A stretch of 43,782 nt of DNA from Candidatus Gastranaerophilales bacterium (GTDB lineage: Bacteria > Cyanobacteriota > Vampirovibrionia > Gastranaerophilales > Gastranaerophilaceae). The translations under genes were made by a program, and so were the position numbers. The notes beneath the pieces were generated by a model, which saw only the letters and a program-made list of their open reading frames with translations, did no database searches and was not told where the DNA came from. Within the stretch, counting starts at the first letter, position 1, and every line of letters begins with the position of its first letter. Shown piece after piece: positions 24,254 through 40,280 of this stretch. The stretch lies in contig CALUQI010000003.1 of NCBI GenBank assembly GCA_944322875.1, positions 1 to 43,782 on the forward strand. Direction: 5' to 3'.

Positions 24254-27200
24254 ATGTCTGAATTTGAGATTTCAAAAACAAATATAGAACAGTTCAGAAA
24301 AAATAATCCTGAATATAAGACTGCTGCTGACAGCGTCATTATTTCAATAATGACTCAAGAAAAAAGGTCAGTTTCAGATATGAATAACTCAATATACTCA
24401 AATAATTCTGAAATAGTTATTGATGACAAGGGTATAATACTAGAAAAAAATTGCGGAGAGAGTGTAAGTGTTTCCAATCCGGTTATAGTTAATTTAGAAG
24501 GAAAATCATATAATTTAAATGATATTTTATCGCAAAGAGTTAATAAAGTGCCTGAGGATTTAGATAAAGCGAAAAGTTCTGATGGATTTATAGGTACTGT
24601 TTGGGGAGGATTCAAAAATCTTACAGGAATCGGTGATAGTTCAGATAAAGTACTTGAAAAACAAAAGAATGAAAAAAATTTATTGATTCAATTCAATACG
24701 AACGAACAAACCAGAAATGAGTCATTTAAGGCTTTAACCGGCGAAGATTATACACCTGAAAATTTAGAGAAATTTGTAAAAGGCGAGCTGCTTTTATCTT
24801 CTGAAAAAGCTTTATGGGGTTACATTGAAGGGCAAGAAATGGCATTGGATGTTTCGGCTGATATGATATCAGGAATAGCTGCATTGGGGATATATACTTT
24901 GGCTGTAGCAGCAGCTCCGTTAACCGGTGGAGCTTCCATAGCTTTGGGTGTTGCAGCAGCTGCCGGTTCAGGTGCTTTAATTAAAACGTCTTTAAAATAT
25001 GTTGATGCCAAGACAGGAAATAGAAATTACGATACGGATAATTTAGTCAAAGATCTTTCCACAGGTGCTTTTTCGGGTGTATTAGCTCCTGTAACAGGTG
25101 GTCTGGGTGGTGCTGTAGGTAAAACTGTTGCAACTAAATTGGGTGTTCAAACTGTGAAGCAAGTTGGAAAAGAATTGGTTGCTGATGCTGCAGAAACTGG
25201 AGTAAAACAAGGTTTAAAATCTATACTGACTAATCCTACAGGTTATGAGTATGTCGGAGGAAATGTTTTAAAACGCGGCTTGGCATTAGGAACAGAAATG
25301 ACAGTTGATGGTGCTATCTCAGGAGCCGCAGATAATGCATTCAGAACAGGATATGATGGTGGTGATATTCAAGAAGTGGGAGAAGCTGCTTTGGAAGGCT
25401 TTGTTGCCGGAACAATTATGTCTCCACTTATTGGCGGTGGTATTAAAGTTGTTGGTAAGGGCGCACATAAAATCCTAAATAAAAAGAATAATGTTGACGT
25501 AAAGTTTGATGAGGTACCTTTAAAGGAGAAATTTGATGATATATATTCAAAGATAAGTTCATTAGCAGATGAAGATGATTCATTCAAACCTATACTGAAT
25601 TCCATAAATGAAGAAAATGTGAGTTTGGCGGAAGCATTATGTTCCGACGAAAAATTTCCTAAAGATTTAATCGCTAATATATTACATAATACAAATTCTC
25701 AAAAATTATCATTGGCAAAGAAACTTTGTTTTGATAAAGATTTCCCTAAAAGTTATATTGCTAATATATTATACAATTTATATCCGGATAAATTATCATT
25801 TGTCGAGAAGCTATGTTTTGATAAGAAATTTCCAGTAGCTTATATTGAGAGAGTTGCCTGGAATCTTAATGATATTAATAAACCTTTAGCAAATAAAATA
25901 TGTTTCGATAAAAATTTTAATAAAGAGTATGTTTCTCAAATATTACATGAAACAAGACAGGATACGTACGATCTTGCAACAAAATTGTGTTCAAGTAAAG
26001 ATTTCCCTCAAGAAATCATCGCCGTGGTATTAAGCAATACTAATAAAGTGAACGCTGAACTTACACAACAATTGTGCTTTGATAAAGATTTTCCTAAATA
26101 TCTTATAAGTAAGATAATTTCAACTGCTGATGAAAATAATATAGGTTTTCTAAAAGAATTATGTTTGAATAAAAATTTCCCAAAAGAGTATATCTATGAT
26201 GTAATGAAATATTCTAATAATGTAAATTTTAAATTAGCCAAAAATTTATGTATGGATAATGATTTCCCTAAAGAATGTGTTGTAGATATACTAAGGTACG
26301 TAATTAATGAAGATAATTTGTATATTGCAAGTAAACTATGTTTGAACAAAGATTTCCCTAAAAAAGAAATTCCGAGTATTATATTTTATTCAAGACCAAA
26401 AACTTTTGAATTAATTGAAAAGCTATCGTCTGATAAAGATTTTCCTAAAGAATTTATCGCTGAGATATTACGTAATACAAATGAATCAAATTTTTCACTA
26501 GCGAATAAGCTTTGTTCAGATAAAAATTTCCCTAAAGAACACATTGCCGATGTATTGTTGGGGGTTAAACCGGAAACTATAGATTTTATCTCGGAATTAA
26601 TTAATACGGATTTCCCAAAAGATAAAATCCATTTAATATCGTATAATACAAATAAAGAAAATCTTTCGTTTGCAAAACAGTTATGTTTTGATAAAGATTT
26701 TCCTAAAGAGTACGTCGGTGATATATTGAATGCGGCCAAACATGATCCGCCTGCATTTGTTACAGATTTGTGCTTTAATATAAAAGATTTCCCGAGACAA
26801 TATATCAAAGACATTGTGAAATATATTAATGATACGAATTTAGATTTCGCTAAAGATTTGTGTCTGGATACATCTTTCCCGAAAGAATATATCGGAAGTA
26901 TATTGAAATCAGTAAAACAATCTAATCTTTCATTTGCAAAAAAATTGTGCTCTAAAAAGGATTTTCCAAAAGAATATGCTGCAAATATATTGACCCATAC
27001 CAGAGAAAGTAATATTGATTTTACAAAAATGTTGTGTTCGGTTGATGATTTTCCAAAAGAACATATAGGTAAAATATTAAAATTTATTTGTAAAGATAAT
27101 TATTCATTGGCTAAAAAAATGTGCTTAGACAAAAATTTTCCTAAAGAACACATAGCAAATATATTATCTTCTATAAGTAATGAAAAAGCATTATTGCTAG

Positions 27201-29359
27201 CGAAGAAATTGTGTTTTGATAAGAATTTCCCGAAAGAACAAATAGCTAATATTTTGAATTATGTTAATGATTTATCATTTTCGTTAGCAAACAAATTGTG
27301 TTCTGACAAAAACTTTCCTAAAGGACAAATTCCAAAAATATTATTGCGTATTGATGAATCAAACCTTAAACTGGCAGAAAAATTATGCTCAGATAAAAAA
27401 GTTTCTCCTGAGTTAATTAGCAATATTTTAGAAATTAATTCGTTTACTAATCAATATAAGAATCTTGCAAGTCTAAAATATGCTCAGAAATTAGAATTGT
27501 ATGATTATATTTCCAAGCTTGAGCAAAATGATAGGTATGTTTGCGAAAAATATAACTTGAATATAAATAAAATTTTTGAAGAATTATCTTTAGTGCTTAG
27601 ACAAAAAAGAAATGTTATAAATACTACTTCTGAAAAACAAAAATTGTTTTTCTCTAATATATTGTCAAACAATAATTCAGATGCACTAAAAATATTAAGA
27701 AAATTTGATTTTGGGCAGTATGAAAAAAAAGGTTTACCTTTAAAGTATTCTCGTTCTGAGTTTATCAAAAATATAGATAATCTTCTTTTACAATTGCCTT
27801 CATCAGAACAAAATAAATTATTAAAACATTTCGGATTTGAAAAAAATCAGATGGATTACGATGGTTTAGCCAATAATAGTAATTATGAAGAAATGGGTTC
27901 ATCCGATTTAGTAAAACAAATCGCAGAAAAAATAAAATTAGAAATTGAACATTTTACTATTCAAAATGAAGTAATTACAGGGGATGCAAAAGTCGATGAA
28001 TTACTTACAAGTTTAGTACAAGGATTCCCTGAATTTACTTTATCTATTGGGAAAGCGCAACATGCAACTCATTCCTATAGTGTAGATATTCATACATTGA
28101 AAGTCCTTCAAAATGCGTTAAATGATCCAGCATATAAAGAACTTAATAATCAAGATAAAACTATACTCAAAAGTGCCATATTATTGCATGATTTAGGTAA
28201 AAAAGGCGGCATAATAGATACAGGACATCAAAATTTAAGTGCAGATTATGCATATTCTATTCTTCAAAAATATTCTTTCCCAAAAAATATAAAAGCTCGT
28301 ATTGTTGATATTGTAGAAAATCACCATTGGTTTGAGGGTTACAACAAGGGTAGTTTAACTAGTGAAGATATAGCTGTATATTCAAGGAGACCAAATGATT
28401 TTAAAATATTTACCATCTTGTCAAAAGCTGATTTGGAAAGCGTTAATAACGACTTCTACTTAAAGGTATCAGGTACAAAAAATAAGGCTGAGTTTGATAA
28501 ATTTATTTCCGATAAAACAAAAAATATTCAAGCCGATTTAAAAAGAATATATTCAAGGTCAAACTTGGTTTTTGATACTAAGTTTGTCAAAAAAGGTTCT
28601 TTATTCCCCCAAAAAATCGTTAATATAGACGGAAATCAGCTATCTTTAAGAGTTTTAGATATGAATGAGTTACCGGACGATTTTGATATGCAAGTTTTTG
28701 GTTTTACTCCGGGTGTTAAGAAAAAGGATGTTAGGTTTATAGTCCATATGACAGAACCTAACAGTACAAATCTGCAGATAGTGAATATTTTGACAGATAA
28801 TCCTTTGAATGCCAGTACTTGGTCTGCAAGTTTGGTAAAACCGTCTGAGAATGCTACTTATTTGCAGCGAAAGTTTGGTTTTATTTTTGATGTTGATCAG
28901 GCTAATATTTCAGAAACATACTATAGAAATACAGTTTCCGGAATTGAAAAGGATTTTGAAAAATTTAAAACTACTTTATTTGATTCTTTTGATATTACAA
29001 GAACTTATGTTAAAGAAAAATTCTTGGAAAGATTAGAACAAAAAGGTATAAATTTATCAGATGAACAATATGCAATTCTCTCAGAAAAACTTTTGGGTAA
29101 AAGATATATTACACAAATTAACGAGGATGTTGTTATTGACGGAAAGAAAATCAAAGCGTCTGATATAGTTGAATGTCTGGAATATTCCAGAGATAAATTA
29201 TTCTATGATAAAAAATTCCATTCTGAAATAGTTTGTATTAACCCTAGAGTAATTGGTATGATAGCTAAAGTGGATAATTTAGAGGAATGTCCACAGGAAT
29301 TTTTGCAATTTGCCAGCGATAATAACATCCCCATAGTCTTAATGAGTGATTCTCAATGA
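24254..29359 (+). CDS. giant protein with Gly/Ala-rich membrane module, 21 helical repeats and HD domain
   Basis: 1701 residues, no known family for the whole. There is no signal peptide. Residues 1-190 are polar. Residues about 195-415 are Gly/Ala-rich and hydrophobic (GIYTLAVAAAPLTGGASIAL; GGLGGAVGKTVATKLG; AGTIMSPLIGGGIKVVG), resembling membrane-inserting modules of large effector or toxin-like proteins. Residues 458-1068 hold 21 tandem 29-residue repeats, predicted two-helix units that should stack into a solenoid. Residues about 1265-1400 form an HD domain: His1273, the HD pair His1312-Asp1313 in LLHDLGKKGG, VENHHW at 1355-1359 and Asp1393 in SKADLESVN; all expected metal ligands are present, so phosphohydrolase activity is plausible. 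The last 300 residues are unassigned. The gene is alone between HU and a GT2. The ribosome site is weak. Confidence 0.8.
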   Translation: MSEFEISKTNIEQFRKNNPEYKTAADSVIISIMTQEKRSVSDMNNSIYSNNSEIVIDDKGIILEKNCGESVSVSNPVIVNLEGKSYNLNDILSQRVNKVPEDLDKAKSSDGFIGTVWGGFKNLTGIGDSSDKVLEKQKNEKNLLIQFNTNEQTRNESFKALTGEDYTPENLEKFVKGELLLSSEKALWGYIEGQEMALDVSADMISGIAALGIYTLAVAAAPLTGGASIALGVAAAAGSGALIKTSLKYVDAKTGNRNYDTDNLVKDLSTGAFSGVLAPVTGGLGGAVGKTVATKLGVQTVKQVGKELVADAAETGVKQGLKSILTNPTGYEYVGGNVLKRGLALGTEMTVDGAISGAADNAFRTGYDGGDIQEVGEAALEGFVAGTIMSPLIGGGIKVVGKGAHKILNKKNNVDVKFDEVPLKEKFDDIYSKISSLADEDDSFKPILNSINEENVSLAEALCSDEKFPKDLIANILHNTNSQKLSLAKKLCFDKDFPKSYIANILYNLYPDKLSFVEKLCFDKKFPVAYIERVAWNLNDINKPLANKICFDKNFNKEYVSQILHETRQDTYDLATKLCSSKDFPQEIIAVVLSNTNKVNAELTQQLCFDKDFPKYLISKIISTADENNIGFLKELCLNKNFPKEYIYDVMKYSNNVNFKLAKNLCMDNDFPKECVVDILRYVINEDNLYIASKLCLNKDFPKKEIPSIIFYSRPKTFELIEKLSSDKDFPKEFIAEILRNTNESNFSLANKLCSDKNFPKEHIADVLLGVKPETIDFISELINTDFPKDKIHLISYNTNKENLSFAKQLCFDKDFPKEYVGDILNAAKHDPPAFVTDLCFNIKDFPRQYIKDIVKYINDTNLDFAKDLCLDTSFPKEYIGSILKSVKQSNLSFAKKLCSKKDFPKEYAANILTHTRESNIDFTKMLCSVDDFPKEHIGKILKFICKDNYSLAKKMCLDKNFPKEHIANILSSISNEKALLLAKKLCFDKNFPKEQIANILNYVNDLSFSLANKLCSDKNFPKGQIPKILLRIDESNLKLAEKLCSDKKVSPELISNILEINSFTNQYKNLASLKYAQKLELYDYISKLEQNDRYVCEKYNLNINKIFEELSLVLRQKRNVINTTSEKQKLFFSNILSNNNSDALKILRKFDFGQYEKKGLPLKYSRSEFIKNIDNLLLQLPSSEQNKLLKHFGFEKNQMDYDGLANNSNYEEMGSSDLVKQIAEKIKLEIEHFTIQNEVITGDAKVDELLTSLVQGFPEFTLSIGKAQHATHSYSVDIHTLKVLQNALNDPAYKELNNQDKTILKSAILLHDLGKKGGIIDTGHQNLSADYAYSILQKYSFPKNIKARIVDIVENHHWFEGYNKGSLTSEDIAVYSRRPNDFKIFTILSKADLESVNNDFYLKVSGTKNKAEFDKFISDKTKNIQADLKRIYSRSNLVFDTKFVKKGSLFPQKIVNIDGNQLSLRVLDMNELPDDFDMQVFGFTPGVKKKDVRFIVHMTEPNSTNLQIVNILTDNPLNASTWSASLVKPSENATYLQRKFGFIFDVDQANISETYYRNTVSGIEKDFEKFKTTLFDSFDITRTYVKEKFLERLEQKGINLSDEQYAILSEKLLGKRYITQINEDVVIDGKKIKASDIVECLEYSRDKLFYDKKFHSEIVCINPRVIGMIAKVDNLEECPQEFLQFASDNNIPIVLMSDSQ
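25625..27457 (+). repeat. 21 tandem 87-base coding repeats (29 residues each)
   Basis: Repeat units begin at residue 458 and run without interruption to 1068. The core is [LF]A.KLC.DK.FPKEYI, followed by A.IL and about nine variable residues ending in N.. . Sixteen or more copies keep the Cys at position 6 and nearly all keep Phe-Pro at 11-12. Most are exactly 29 residues; units 8, 14 and 18 have 30 and unit 12 has 28. DNA copies are diverged, so this is an old array, not a recent expansion. Confidence 0.92.
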
Positions 29360-36870: not shown

Positions 36871-37167
36871 ATGTCTAAAAATTTAAGCGATGCGATACTA
36901 AATATTATGAAAGAAAATGCTGCACAGCATATAGCAATCTTTACAAATCATCTTAAAATCGATGGTACTATCCATGAGTTTAAAGGTAAATGCGCGGATT
37001 GCCATGATTGTATAATCGCGTTAAAAAATGTTACTTTATGCAGACTGGAAGATTATTGTACTTGCAGCAGCGACGATTGTGAATGCCACGATTATGTGTG
37101 CTTTAGATATGACTGGATTAATATTAATATATCAGAAATAGTTGCTTTTAGTATTCTGTCTGATTAG
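36871..37167 (+). CDS. small Cys-rich hypothetical protein
   Basis: 98 residues. An N-terminal helix (LSDAILNIMKENAAQHIAIF) and strand region are followed by a Cys cluster (KGKCADCHDCI, YCTCSSDDCECHDYVCF) with nine cysteines in all, suggesting metal binding. No family is recognised. It has its own good ribosome site (GGAGGG) and a TATACT about 20 bases upstream. Its last 20 bases overlap the convergent HD-GYP gene. Confidence 0.65.
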   Translation: MSKNLSDAILNIMKENAAQHIAIFTNHLKIDGTIHEFKGKCADCHDCIIALKNVTLCRLEDYCTCSSDDCECHDYVCFRYDWININISEIVAFSILSD

Positions 37168-38392
37168 TTACTTTAGAAATTGATTCAACTACAATTGGAT
37201 CCCATTTCCGGTCTGACTTCATAATATTAATTGCTTGTTGGCTACTCATAGCCTTTCTGTATGGTCTGTCAGATATCATTGCACTATATGCGTCTGCAGC
37301 TGCTATTATACGTGAGCCTAAAGGTATTGATTGTCCTTTGAGACCTTCTGGTTTGCCGCTTCCGTCATATCGTTCTGTCTGACAATTTACATATGGAACA
37401 ACTTCTGATAAAAAGTTTATATTCATTAGGAGGTTCACGCCCGTGTTTATGTGTTGTTGTACCTCTTTCAGCTCTTTTTCTGAAAGTTTTCCATTATTCG
37501 CGAATACTCTTTCAGGCAGAGTTATTTTCCCAATATTTTGAAGCAGTGCGGCATAATATATTAAGTCTGTTGTTTTCTCGTTTAATCCCAAATCTTTGCA
37601 TATTAATTTTGCTAAGTTGGCGGTGTTTTGTGAATGTGAAACTCGATATTGACCTTTTGTGTCGACCGCTTTTGCTAGTTCGACTACAAAGTTTTGTTGA
37701 TAATCGCATAAATCCCCTATTAATGCGGTCAATTCTGCTCTTAAGTGTTGCATCTGCGATAGTGATATGTCTGATTGCTCTATGAGGTTTGTTACCTCAT
37801 CTATTTGACTCTGCATTTCTATTGAAGTGCCAAAAAGCTGTGCTATACTTATTACAAGCTTTAGATAATCCTTGTTGAGAATTTTGTTATCTGCTGTTTG
37901 TATTGTGATTATGCCAGTTACCTCATTTGAGGTTCGCATTGCTATGTAAGTTATTTCTTGCTCAAATATGTAATCTTTTCCTCCAAAGTTTACCTGAATT
38001 TCTCTTTCTGAAATATTATTTGTTGAACCTGCAAGAATCATTTTGCTTTGCTTTGGCATGTATATGCTACATGATTTTGCATCTACCATTTGTTTTATTG
38101 TGTTTGCTATTGATGTGTATATTGCTTGTTCTTTATCTGGATCAAAATTTAAAACACGTAGTGTTTTTTGGTAGGAGTAGATTAATATAAGTTCTTTTAA
38201 TTGCTCTTTTAGGCTTGATTTCTTGTCTTTGGTGCTCGTGCTTATTTTTTTTGCAAGATCTTCTGATATCAAATGCTCCGATACGAAATCTCCTATGTTA
38301 AGCGCAAATATCTCTTCTAATGGATCTCCGTCAACCAAATATTCTGATTGCCCAAATAGTGACACACCATTTCTAGTTTCATCTTTCTTCAT
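37148..38392 (-). CDS. GAF-HD-GYP protein with degenerate catalytic site
   Basis: 414 residues. Residues about 95-205 look like a GAF domain (IANTIKQMVDAKSCSIYMPK; ITIQTADNKILNKDYLKLV), followed by a coiled-coil (205-235) and an HD-GYP domain from about 240. Canonical HD-GYP proteins hydrolyse c-di-GMP. Here the HD dyad reads QN (YYAALLQNIGKITLP, about 285), the HHH before E is CQT (YVNCQTERYDGSG) and GYP is GKP, while the first His (VSHSQN), a later His (VQQHINTG) and RPYRKAMS remain. Catalysis is therefore unlikely and a binding or scaffold role is inferred. Start Met at 38392 has the proper distance to AAAAGGAA; 38398 is the alternative. Confidence 0.88.
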   Translation of the reverse strand: MKKDETRNGVSLFGQSEYLVDGDPLEEIFALNIGDFVSEHLISEDLAKKISTSTKDKKSSLKEQLKELILIYSYQKTLRVLNFDPDKEQAIYTSIANTIKQMVDAKSCSIYMPKQSKMILAGSTNNISEREIQVNFGGKDYIFEQEITYIAMRTSNEVTGIITIQTADNKILNKDYLKLVISIAQLFGTSIEMQSQIDEVTNLIEQSDISLSQMQHLRAELTALIGDLCDYQQNFVVELAKAVDTKGQYRVSHSQNTANLAKLICKDLGLNEKTTDLIYYAALLQNIGKITLPERVFANNGKLSEKELKEVQQHINTGVNLLMNINFLSEVVPYVNCQTERYDGSGKPEGLKGQSIPLGSRIIAAADAYSAMISDRPYRKAMSSQQAINIMKSDRKWDPIVVESISKVTNQTEY

Positions 38393-38463
38393 CAACATTT
38401 CCTTTTTTTACATGCTTTTATTTTCTTTTACGGCACAATTAATATAAAACTTTAATATTTTTT

Positions 38464-38492
38464 TTGGAAGTACTACTTTAGTATGGTATAAT
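38464..38492 (+). promoter_or_regulatory. promoter of the GT2-GT8 pair
   Basis: TTGGAA (38464-38469), 17 bases, TATAAT (38487-38492) with TGG before it (extended -10). The leader is about 12 bases and includes AGGAGAAATT before ATG 38510. Confidence 0.65.
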
Positions 38493-38509
38493 TGTCCTCA
38501 GGAGAAATT

Positions 38510-39361
38510 ATGACTAAAATAAGTATTATTATTCCCGTTTATAACTGTGAAAAATATGTCGCAAAATGTGTTGATAGTTTGTTAAGACAAACCTTGAATG
38601 ACATAGAAATAATCTTGATTAATGATGGTTCTACTGATAATTCACTTGGCATCTTGAAACAATATAATGATAATCGTATTAAAATAATAACTAAAGCCAA
38701 TGGCGGTCAATCTTCTGCAAGAAATGTAGGTATGGAAATTGCTAAAGGAGAATATATAGGTTTTGTAGATAGTGATGATTGGGTCGCTCCTGATTATTAC
38801 GAAAAATTGTATAATACTGCGATTAAGTACCATGCTGACATTGCAATGTCAGATTTTGTGAGAATAGGTGTGCGAAAATATAAAGTTAGACTAAATATTA
38901 CTGAAGAAAAAGTTTATGAACGCATTGAAAATAAAATTAAAGCAGCAAATGCACTTAAAGAAGGTTGTGTTTGGAATAAAATTTACAAACGGAATATTTT
39001 GTCAAATTTAAGGTTTTGTGAAGGTATGTTTTTTGAGGATGGACCTTTTACCTTACGTGCCTTATACGCTTGTAATAAATTGGTAACTGTTCCTGGAACT
39101 TTGTATTTCTATTTCCAAAACCCTCTGTCTACCGTGAAAACTATGGATAGAAAGAAAAGGTTAGATAAACAAAAAAGTAAAGCAGATATGCTTGAGTTCA
39201 TAAAGTTAAATAATATAAACATTGAGGATAAGTCTTATTGGGCTGTTTATAAAACCTATACTTTATTCAATATTGTCCTATTGACTTTGCAAAAAAGTAT
39301 AAATACCAAACGTTTTATGTTATTTGGAGTTATTCCATTATGGCAGGTGGCTTATGACTAA
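38510..39361 (+). CDS. glycosyltransferase family 2 (GT-A fold)
   Basis: 283 residues, soluble. ISIIIPVYNCEKYVAKCVDSLLRQ, ILINDGSTDNS, GGQSSARNVGME and FVDSDDW are the standard nucleotide-sugar and metal-binding parts of a GT-A enzyme. C-terminal FEDGPFTLRALYAC fits family members that add single sugars to cell-surface glycans. It overlaps the following GT8 gene by 8 bases, so they probably act on the same glycan. Confidence 0.9.
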   Translation: MTKISIIIPVYNCEKYVAKCVDSLLRQTLNDIEIILINDGSTDNSLGILKQYNDNRIKIITKANGGQSSARNVGMEIAKGEYIGFVDSDDWVAPDYYEKLYNTAIKYHADIAMSDFVRIGVRKYKVRLNITEEKVYERIENKIKAANALKEGCVWNKIYKRNILSNLRFCEGMFFEDGPFTLRALYACNKLVTVPGTLYFYFQNPLSTVKTMDRKKRLDKQKSKADMLEFIKLNNINIEDKSYWAVYKTYTLFNIVLLTLQKSINTKRFMLFGVIPLWQVAYD

Positions 39362-40280
39362 AATTTCAATTTGCTTTTCTTCTGATAATAATTATGCTCA
39401 GCATCTTTGCGTTACTTTGGCTTCAGTTTTGGTTAATAAGTTGCCTTCTGATGAGATTGTTGTATACGTTTTGGATGGCGGAATCTCTCAATATAATAAG
39501 TCTAAAATCCTTGATTTGCAAACTAAATTTGATTTCGAGATAAATTTTATAGCTATTGATAAAAACTTACATGATAAGTTCCCTCAAGGTAAAAAGAATC
39601 ATGTAACTTTGGCGACATATTATAGACTGCTTTTACCTGAGTTGTGTCCTTGCGTTGATAAGCTTCTTTATCTTGATGTCGATATCATTGTTAATTCAAG
39701 CTTAAGTGATTTGTTTAATATTGAACTTGGAAAATATTATTTTGCCGGTGTGAAGGATTCTGAAGAATTAATTAATGCTGAAAGGTTAAACTTGCTAAAG
39801 TATTGTAACGCAGGTGTGTTACTTATTAATTTAAAAAAATGGCGTGAGGATGATGTTACTCATAAGTTTTTTGCTTGGATGCATGAAAATCAGAACAAGA
39901 TTCTGCTTCACGACCAAGACGTAATAAATTGCGTGTTGCAAGATGCTATACTTGTTTTAGATAATATTTGGAATGTTCAAGTTTCTAAATATCAAACCTC
40001 TAAAGAGTTTGTGATGATTTTACCTGATGCTAAGATAATTCATTATATCGGAAAGCATAAGCCTTGGCATACTAATTTTAAACAAATTGCTAAAAAACAG
40101 TATTTCGCTTGTCTAAAATTTACTGCTTGGAAATGGTTTATTATGAAATATTACTCTGTATTGATCCTGAAATTACCAATACTTTTGCTTGACAGAATCT
40201 CCCATAATGTTTTTTCAATTGAAAAACAAAATGGAATAAAATATCTTATTCTATTCGGACTCAAAATTAGTATCCGATAG
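39354..40280 (+). CDS. glycosyltransferase family 8
   Basis: 308 residues. The start ISICFSSDNNYAQHLCVTLASVLVN, the DxD-type YLDVDIIVNSSLSDLF, the CNAGVLLINLKKW and HDQDVINCVL segments and HYIGKHKPWH are the LgtC/GspA-like GT8 set, which transfers glucose or galactose to lipopolysaccharide or other acceptors with retention. ATG 39354 is preferred (MTKISICF); an ATG at 39324 lies within the previous gene. The C-terminal basic helix may touch the membrane. The end overlaps the ftsL-like gene by 14 bases. Confidence 0.9.
   Translation: MTKISICFSSDNNYAQHLCVTLASVLVNKLPSDEIVVYVLDGGISQYNKSKILDLQTKFDFEINFIAIDKNLHDKFPQGKKNHVTLATYYRLLLPELCPCVDKLLYLDVDIIVNSSLSDLFNIELGKYYFAGVKDSEELINAERLNLLKYCNAGVLLINLKKWREDDVTHKFFAWMHENQNKILLHDQDVINCVLQDAILVLDNIWNVQVSKYQTSKEFVMILPDAKIIHYIGKHKPWHTNFKQIAKKQYFACLKFTAWKWFIMKYYSVLILKLPILLLDRISHNVFSIEKQNGIKYLILFGLKISIR

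Follow-up and report, generated by a model that had tools for sequence, protein, structure and literature searches.

A gene in the 43,782-nucleotide stretch of Candidatus Gastranaerophilales DNA analysed here (all of which is referred to as the window) encodes an HD-GYP protein that lacks the metal-binding HD dyad and, judging from the residues at its active site, is almost certainly catalytically dead. The Gastranaerophilales are uncultured, gut-associated bacteria, an order related to the cyanobacteria. HD-GYP proteins without enzymatic activity are mostly encountered singly, as oddities; in this case the dead form makes up an orthologous family that most of the genomes examined carry, and it appears to have been dead before the order split from two other families of its class. 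By analogy with DvhD of Desulfovibrio vulgaris we are inclined, with modest confidence, to regard the protein as a soluble, GAF-coupled c-di-GMP receptor. It probably senses c-di-GMP rather than cutting it, because the ligands have been lost and yet nearly all close relatives keep the protein.

Gene organization and domain layout

The gene lies at 37148–38392 on the reverse strand and encodes, from the preferred start, 414 residues, in which a conserved N-terminal segment is followed by a GAF and an HD-GYP domain. The open reading frame, from the first ATG (38398), covers 37148–38398 and 416 residues. We prefer the start at its third codon (38392), which the sequence-only reading had also used, because a Shine-Dalgarno-like AAAGG (38401–38405, reverse strand, recognized by eye) stands 8 nt before it as against 2 nt before the upstream ATG, and because the majority of same-genus orthologues begin with MKK or MKN.

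The HD-GYP domain (residues about 236–410; 37169–37693, reverse strand) is recognized by Pfam, by PDB matches and in the structure model, with HD_5 (PF13487) scoring 137.3 bits against a cut-off of 27.2; HDOD is not a better match, at 24.6 bits. Assignment of the GAF-like domain (residues about 90–200; 37799–38131, reverse strand) draws on Pfam together with the model and fold search. In the window protein GAF_3 stays below its cut-off (20.9 of 27 bits), and the presence of a GAF domain, which the sequence-only reading had proposed, gains its support from the 22 of 31 aligned orthologues in which Pfam GAF is recognized with E no higher than 1. HD and GAF are the only domains found, Pfam giving no match to dCache or PAS in the window protein or the orthologues checked, and neither a membrane anchor nor an output domain was found for the family.

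The N-terminal segment (residues 19–75; 38174–38344, reverse strand) is conserved, with the pattern DPLEEIFALN.GDF..EHLIS.DL..KI, and this conservation extends outside the order. Part of it, LGDF..EHLIS, resembled the LG..L...GL of the c-di-GMP-binding MshEN motif, but none of eight pieces matches MshEN at E up to 10, and the profile is able to find true MshEN matches elsewhere in the genome. A weak resemblance to BrxL_N is seen in six of the eight pieces (best E 0.0016, under cut-off), but only 4 of 31 full-length orthologues match it at E up to 1 and the genome has no BrxL_N match.

An AlphaFold model of the protein (mean pLDDT 68.5, pTM 0.71) folds the GAF domain and most of the HD-GYP domain with confidence. 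Confidence is poor at residues 1–56, 326–344 and 348–357, and the last two of these regions hold Q340, T341 and the GKP motif described below. A Foldseek search places PmGH first (E 2.9e-9) and DvhD second (E 2.0e-6), with a probability of 1.00 to 4MCW, 9RBZ and 4R8Z, although this gives the fold class only, because the TM-scores by query length are low (0.32–0.34). By sequence the closest PDB entry is 5Z7C, a 3'3'-cGAMP phosphodiesterase (E 4.5e-29; best hit of a profile match, E 5.1e-41), with DvhD next. That 5Z7C precedes DvhD by sequence and that the active PmGH is the best fold match both count against a c-di-GMP receptor.

Loss of the metal site

We mapped the metal site on PmGH of Persephonella marina (PDB 4MCW, 4MDZ and 4ME4), which has the same GAF plus HD-GYP layout, taking its ligands and mutants as reported (PMC4159591). 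PmGH differs in having eight iron ligands and in cutting c-di-GMP (PMC4159591), whereas the window protein is without H221, D222, H276, H277 and E185. In place of the H221-D222 dyad it has Q287-N288 (37535–37540), and H276-H277 are replaced by Q340-T341 (37376–37381); three ligands are kept, H255 for H189 (37634–37636), H316 for H250 (37451–37453) and D369 for D305 (37292–37294), all of these positions being on the reverse strand. K291, the equivalent of K225, is also kept. The proposed general acid, D183, is replaced by G249, and E185 by Y251, a Tyr shared with 14 of 16 canonical paralogues. Alanine at any one of H221, D222, H276, H277 or D183 is reported to abolish PmGH activity essentially (PMC4159591), and all five are changed in the window protein.

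The sequence-only reading had listed several replacements as hits on metal ligands, and the letters that it quoted (LLQNIGK, NCQTERYDGSGKPEGL and ADAYSAMISDRPYR) are all present in the protein. The exchange of HD for QN is indeed a ligand loss. That of HHH for CQT is one at Q340 and T341, but C339 occupies no ligand position because the canonical motif is HHE. The remaining two changes are present but must be read differently. GKP does replace GYP (37349–37357, reverse strand), but the family shows no conservation at the Tyr position, the Tyr is no ligand, and the Y285A mutant of PmGH is reported to show no substantial decrease in activity (PMC4159591). Similarly, the second Asp of the D-x-x-D element (D308 in PmGH) is not a ligand, although D308A is reported to harm the enzyme (PMC4159591), and the Ser found there in the window protein is not diagnostic because 14 of 16 canonical paralogues of the class have His at this position. 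The PmGH ligands and mutants, together with the canonical paralogues, rule out both as ligand losses. The fold and the RPYR segment were correctly described as kept; neither R378 nor R381 varies in any of the 113 orthologues.

Conservation and age of the loss

Distinct orthologues, 113 including the window's own, were obtained from 135 open reading frames scoring above 300 bits in 147 loci, by collapsing those with identical last 300 residues; two pieces of a broken frame (L067) and six paralogue rows (four distinct) fell under the score and were left out. The sequence-only reading had looked to orthologues for the same losses, and none keeps the dyad: Asn stands at the position of D222 in all 113. 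At H221 the residues are Q (98), H (9), L (4) and R (2), so that some proteins keep HN; at H276 they are Q (78), H (28), K (5), R (1) and N (1); and H277 is replaced by K (75), T (26), R (7) or S (5) and is never His. The position of the GYP Tyr, K349 in the window protein, has no Tyr in any of the 113 and Glu in 41. The recurrence of the losses in so many distinct orthologues (113) excludes chance or sequencing error, the latter as had been anticipated.

The retained residues could conceivably support a residual hydrolase working with fewer metals on H255, H316, D369 and K291, whose equivalents are kept in 112, 106, 113 and 104 of the 113 orthologues, respectively. In favour, RpfG is reported as likely to work with fewer ligands than PmGH (PMC4159591). 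RpfG retains its HD dyad, and this counts against such an enzyme. The change of every one of the five positions at which alanine inactivates PmGH makes residual hydrolysis highly improbable.

An open, full-length orthologue is present in 54 of the 59 relatives' genomes. Of the others, G056 has an orthologue (L067) broken by a run of N, G044 has an N-terminal fragment where a contig stops, and G036, G054 and G058 showed paralogues but no orthologue. Among the nearest relatives with a name (80 loci kept from 489 relatives), most are labelled Candidatus Gastranaerophilales or Melainabacteria and a few are named otherwise. A class-wide search gave matches at E 1e-60 in 206 of 289 genomes, 13 of them outside the order and belonging to two other families; at the scale of the phylum 152 of 339 genomes match, each within the window's order.

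Selection on the family is strongly purifying. From 219 close pairs at 80–98.5% identity, 127 with dS under 1.5 were retained, and their median dN/dS is 0.077 (range 0.013–0.139). Together with the open frames in 54 of 59 genomes, this allows gene decay, and likewise errors of sequencing or assembly, to be practically dismissed, the one orthologue in 59 genomes that would fit such an account being the frame in G056 interrupted by N.

All 13 relatives outside the order also lack both the H and the D of the dyad, having mostly GS instead, with S at the Asn position in 8 of the 11 counted. In a 43-row tree, 25 degenerate and 18 canonical rows are separated by a branch with 100/98 support; the degenerate side includes a distant protein from a third family (L174), whose placement is unsure owing to its long branch, and the canonical side includes a protein of the window's own genome (L002). 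Since degenerate and canonical forms fall on opposite sides of a supported branch, the simplest reading is a single, ancient loss before the lineages parted, making the degenerate metal site old and lineage-wide. The loss of the dyad described in the sequence-only reading is thus real, but it is ancestral to the whole lineage and not an event in this protein. The L174 protein itself (genome G064, 519 residues) has LFSQVGK for LLHDIGK, with the same SQ as DvhD, and keeps GYP.

The c-di-GMP setting of the genome

The genome has five HD_5 matches, and of the four other than the window protein three have an intact HD dyad and one has YD. Seven GGDEF matches are found, three with an exact GG[DE]EF, along with three MshEN and two PilZ matches, one of the latter with a stop inside it, and no match to EAL. 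Such GGDEF and potentially active HD-GYP genes are what the sequence-only reading had proposed to look for. With seven GGDEF matches, three of them exact, c-di-GMP is probably made, and the gene content points to a likely c-di-GMP network in this organism. The L002 protein (G000:C14, 634 residues) combines GGDEF with HD-GYP and has LLYDIGN for LLHDIGK, with HHE and GYP kept, which makes it another altered HD-GYP protein of this genome besides the window protein.

Comparison with DvhD and the putative nucleotide pocket

Inactive HD-GYP proteins are already known as a kind, because three have been described: DvhD, PA2572 and Bd1817. DvhD (DVU1020; PDB 9RBZ and 9RC0) has SQ for HD and MN for HH, and its HD-GYP domain is reported to show neither metal density nor c-di-GMP hydrolysis (PMC13090378). 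Its PAS/HD-GYP portion nevertheless binds c-di-GMP with a Kd of about 99 nM and its dimer changes upon binding, while the R650A and Y652A/R653A mutants are less well stabilized by the nucleotide (PMC13090378). The window protein resembles DvhD in the HD-GYP fold and in the loss of HD and HH. It differs in architecture, DvhD being described as a membrane protein with periplasmic dCache and PAS that controls a protease, in place of which there are here a GAF domain and the N-terminal segment; in Pfam searches the window protein does not show the transmembrane dCache-PAS-HD-GYP layout of DvhD and Lap-type adhesin control. It also lacks the GYP Tyr and K582, both kept in DvhD, and c-di-GMP binding has been measured for DvhD alone.

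Most of the DvhD-type contacts are retained. At six of the nine canonical-site positions the window protein has the DvhD residue (Y251, L305, M374, R378, Y380 and R381), a seventh is a conservative change (D396 for E668), and the two that differ, K582 and the GYP Tyr, are reported phosphate contacts in DvhD (PMC13090378). At the bridging site all three residues agree (K248, P295 and R297), although the third (R569 in DvhD) varies in the family. RPYR (residues 378–381; 37256–37267, reverse strand) corresponds to the c-di-GMP-contacting R650, Y652 and R653, and K248 and Y251 (37646–37657, reverse strand) match K520 of the bridging site and Y523 of the canonical site. D396 (37211–37213, reverse strand) aligns with the guanine-reading E668, an equivalence that depends on where a small gap is placed; at this position the 113 orthologues have E (97), D (15) or N (1) and the outside relatives E in 11 of the 11 counted, whereas 13 of 16 canonical paralogues have Gly. 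As a set, the nine contacts show no higher conservation than domain positions drawn at random (4919 of 20000 draws as low), while a set of seven chosen post hoc does (408 of 20000 draws). Because canonical paralogues, too, typically carry five of the six kept residues, the retention of these reflects an absence of loss rather than a gained function, and this counts against a receptor.

The receptor that we favour would work as follows. The HD-GYP fold, probably dimeric, would hold c-di-GMP in the former active-site cleft, where the RPYR segment, Y251 and L305 would grip it and no metal would be present for cutting. Binding may shift the helix joining the HD-GYP and GAF domains, and c-di-GMP would then decide, jointly with another cue perceived through the GAF domain, whether the N-terminal segment engages a partner.

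An alternative that we consider somewhat unlikely is a protein-interaction scaffold that binds no nucleotide, in which the HD-GYP domain offers a surface on which other proteins, GGDEF proteins for example, can dock, and GAF is the sensor. Bd1817 of Bdellovibrio (PDB 3TM8/3TMB; rank 9 in the fold search) offers a precedent that also counts against the receptor, being inactive and without detectable c-di-GMP binding, although it differs from the window protein in keeping a binuclear iron centre and in having a lid fixed closed (PMC4159591, PMC3774798). Complexes of HD-GYP with GGDEF are reported for RpfG, but these are said to require the GYP motif (PMC4159591), which our family lacks. The missing GYP Tyr and K582 contacts would also suit a scaffold, and the N-terminal segment, conserved but modelled with little confidence before residue 57, would be in keeping with a role in binding. 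Arguing the other way are the invariance of R378 and R381 and the presence of Y380 in 107 of 113 orthologues, though no catalysis needs them, and the conserved acidic residue at the guanine-reading position.

It is decidedly less probable that the protein is a receptor for another ligand (3'3'-cGAMP, c-di-AMP, pGpG or GMP), which would be newly contacted by the universal Asn. The closest PDB sequence, V-cGAP3 of Vibrio (5Z7C), acts on 3'3'-cGAMP, but its matched half retains the HD and HHE motifs that the window protein lacks; DvhD is also reported to bind cGAMP, with an affinity some five times lower than for c-di-GMP (PMC13090378). The Asn is fixed in the orthologues with no drift, yet the prevalence of Ser there outside the order argues that it is not needed family-wide, and the GGDEF proteins of the genome carry the usual signatures.

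PA2572 of Pseudomonas aeruginosa (YN-GYP) likewise has Asn for the Asp of HD and is reported to be inactive on c-di-GMP; it has a REC domain in place of GAF (PMC3411652, PMC3774798). Our literature searches found no paper on Gastranaerophilales together with HD-GYP or on HD-GYP together with pseudoenzyme, and for Melainabacteria and c-di-GMP nothing related by title. What is new is a soluble, GAF-linked, lineage-wide degenerate HD-GYP family.

A broader proposal, which we put forward tentatively, is that this class-level non-catalytic family, carried by almost every Gastranaerophilales genome and by members of two other families of the class, may be a core cytoplasmic GAF-coupled c-di-GMP receptor that evolved independently of DvhD, with the GYP Tyr dispensable and an acidic base-reading residue fixed. 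If c-di-GMP is bound, conversion of an HD-GYP enzyme to a receptor has occurred more than once. The family provides a concrete protein with which to test the role of c-di-GMP in these bacteria, and comparison with the solved DvhD structure names the candidate residues.

Gene neighbours

In 56 of 117 loci of the window's family, rsmH and a short single-helix gene lie upstream on the same strand. We call the short gene FtsL-like, a label of our own, as it has no Pfam match. Where the HD-GYP gene is directly adjacent (28 loci) the gap is 96–339 bp, and in relatives outside the order the neighbours differ, with no partner gene conserved across orders. These wide gaps and differing neighbours argue against a conserved operon partner and leave cell division as a lead only.

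Elsewhere in the window, a 1701-residue protein (24254–29359, forward strand) has weak HD-type matches (CCA transferase, GlnD and Cas3 HD), all far below cut-off. Convergent with the HD-GYP gene is a gene for a 98-residue Cys-rich protein (36871–37167, forward strand), the family of which occurs at 60 of 117 loci, usually in this convergent position; the protein matches DUF6897 only below cut-off. Two glycosyltransferase genes (families 2 and 8; 38492–40280, forward strand) lie between the HD-GYP and FtsL-like genes, a pair that is present in some same-genus loci and absent from others.
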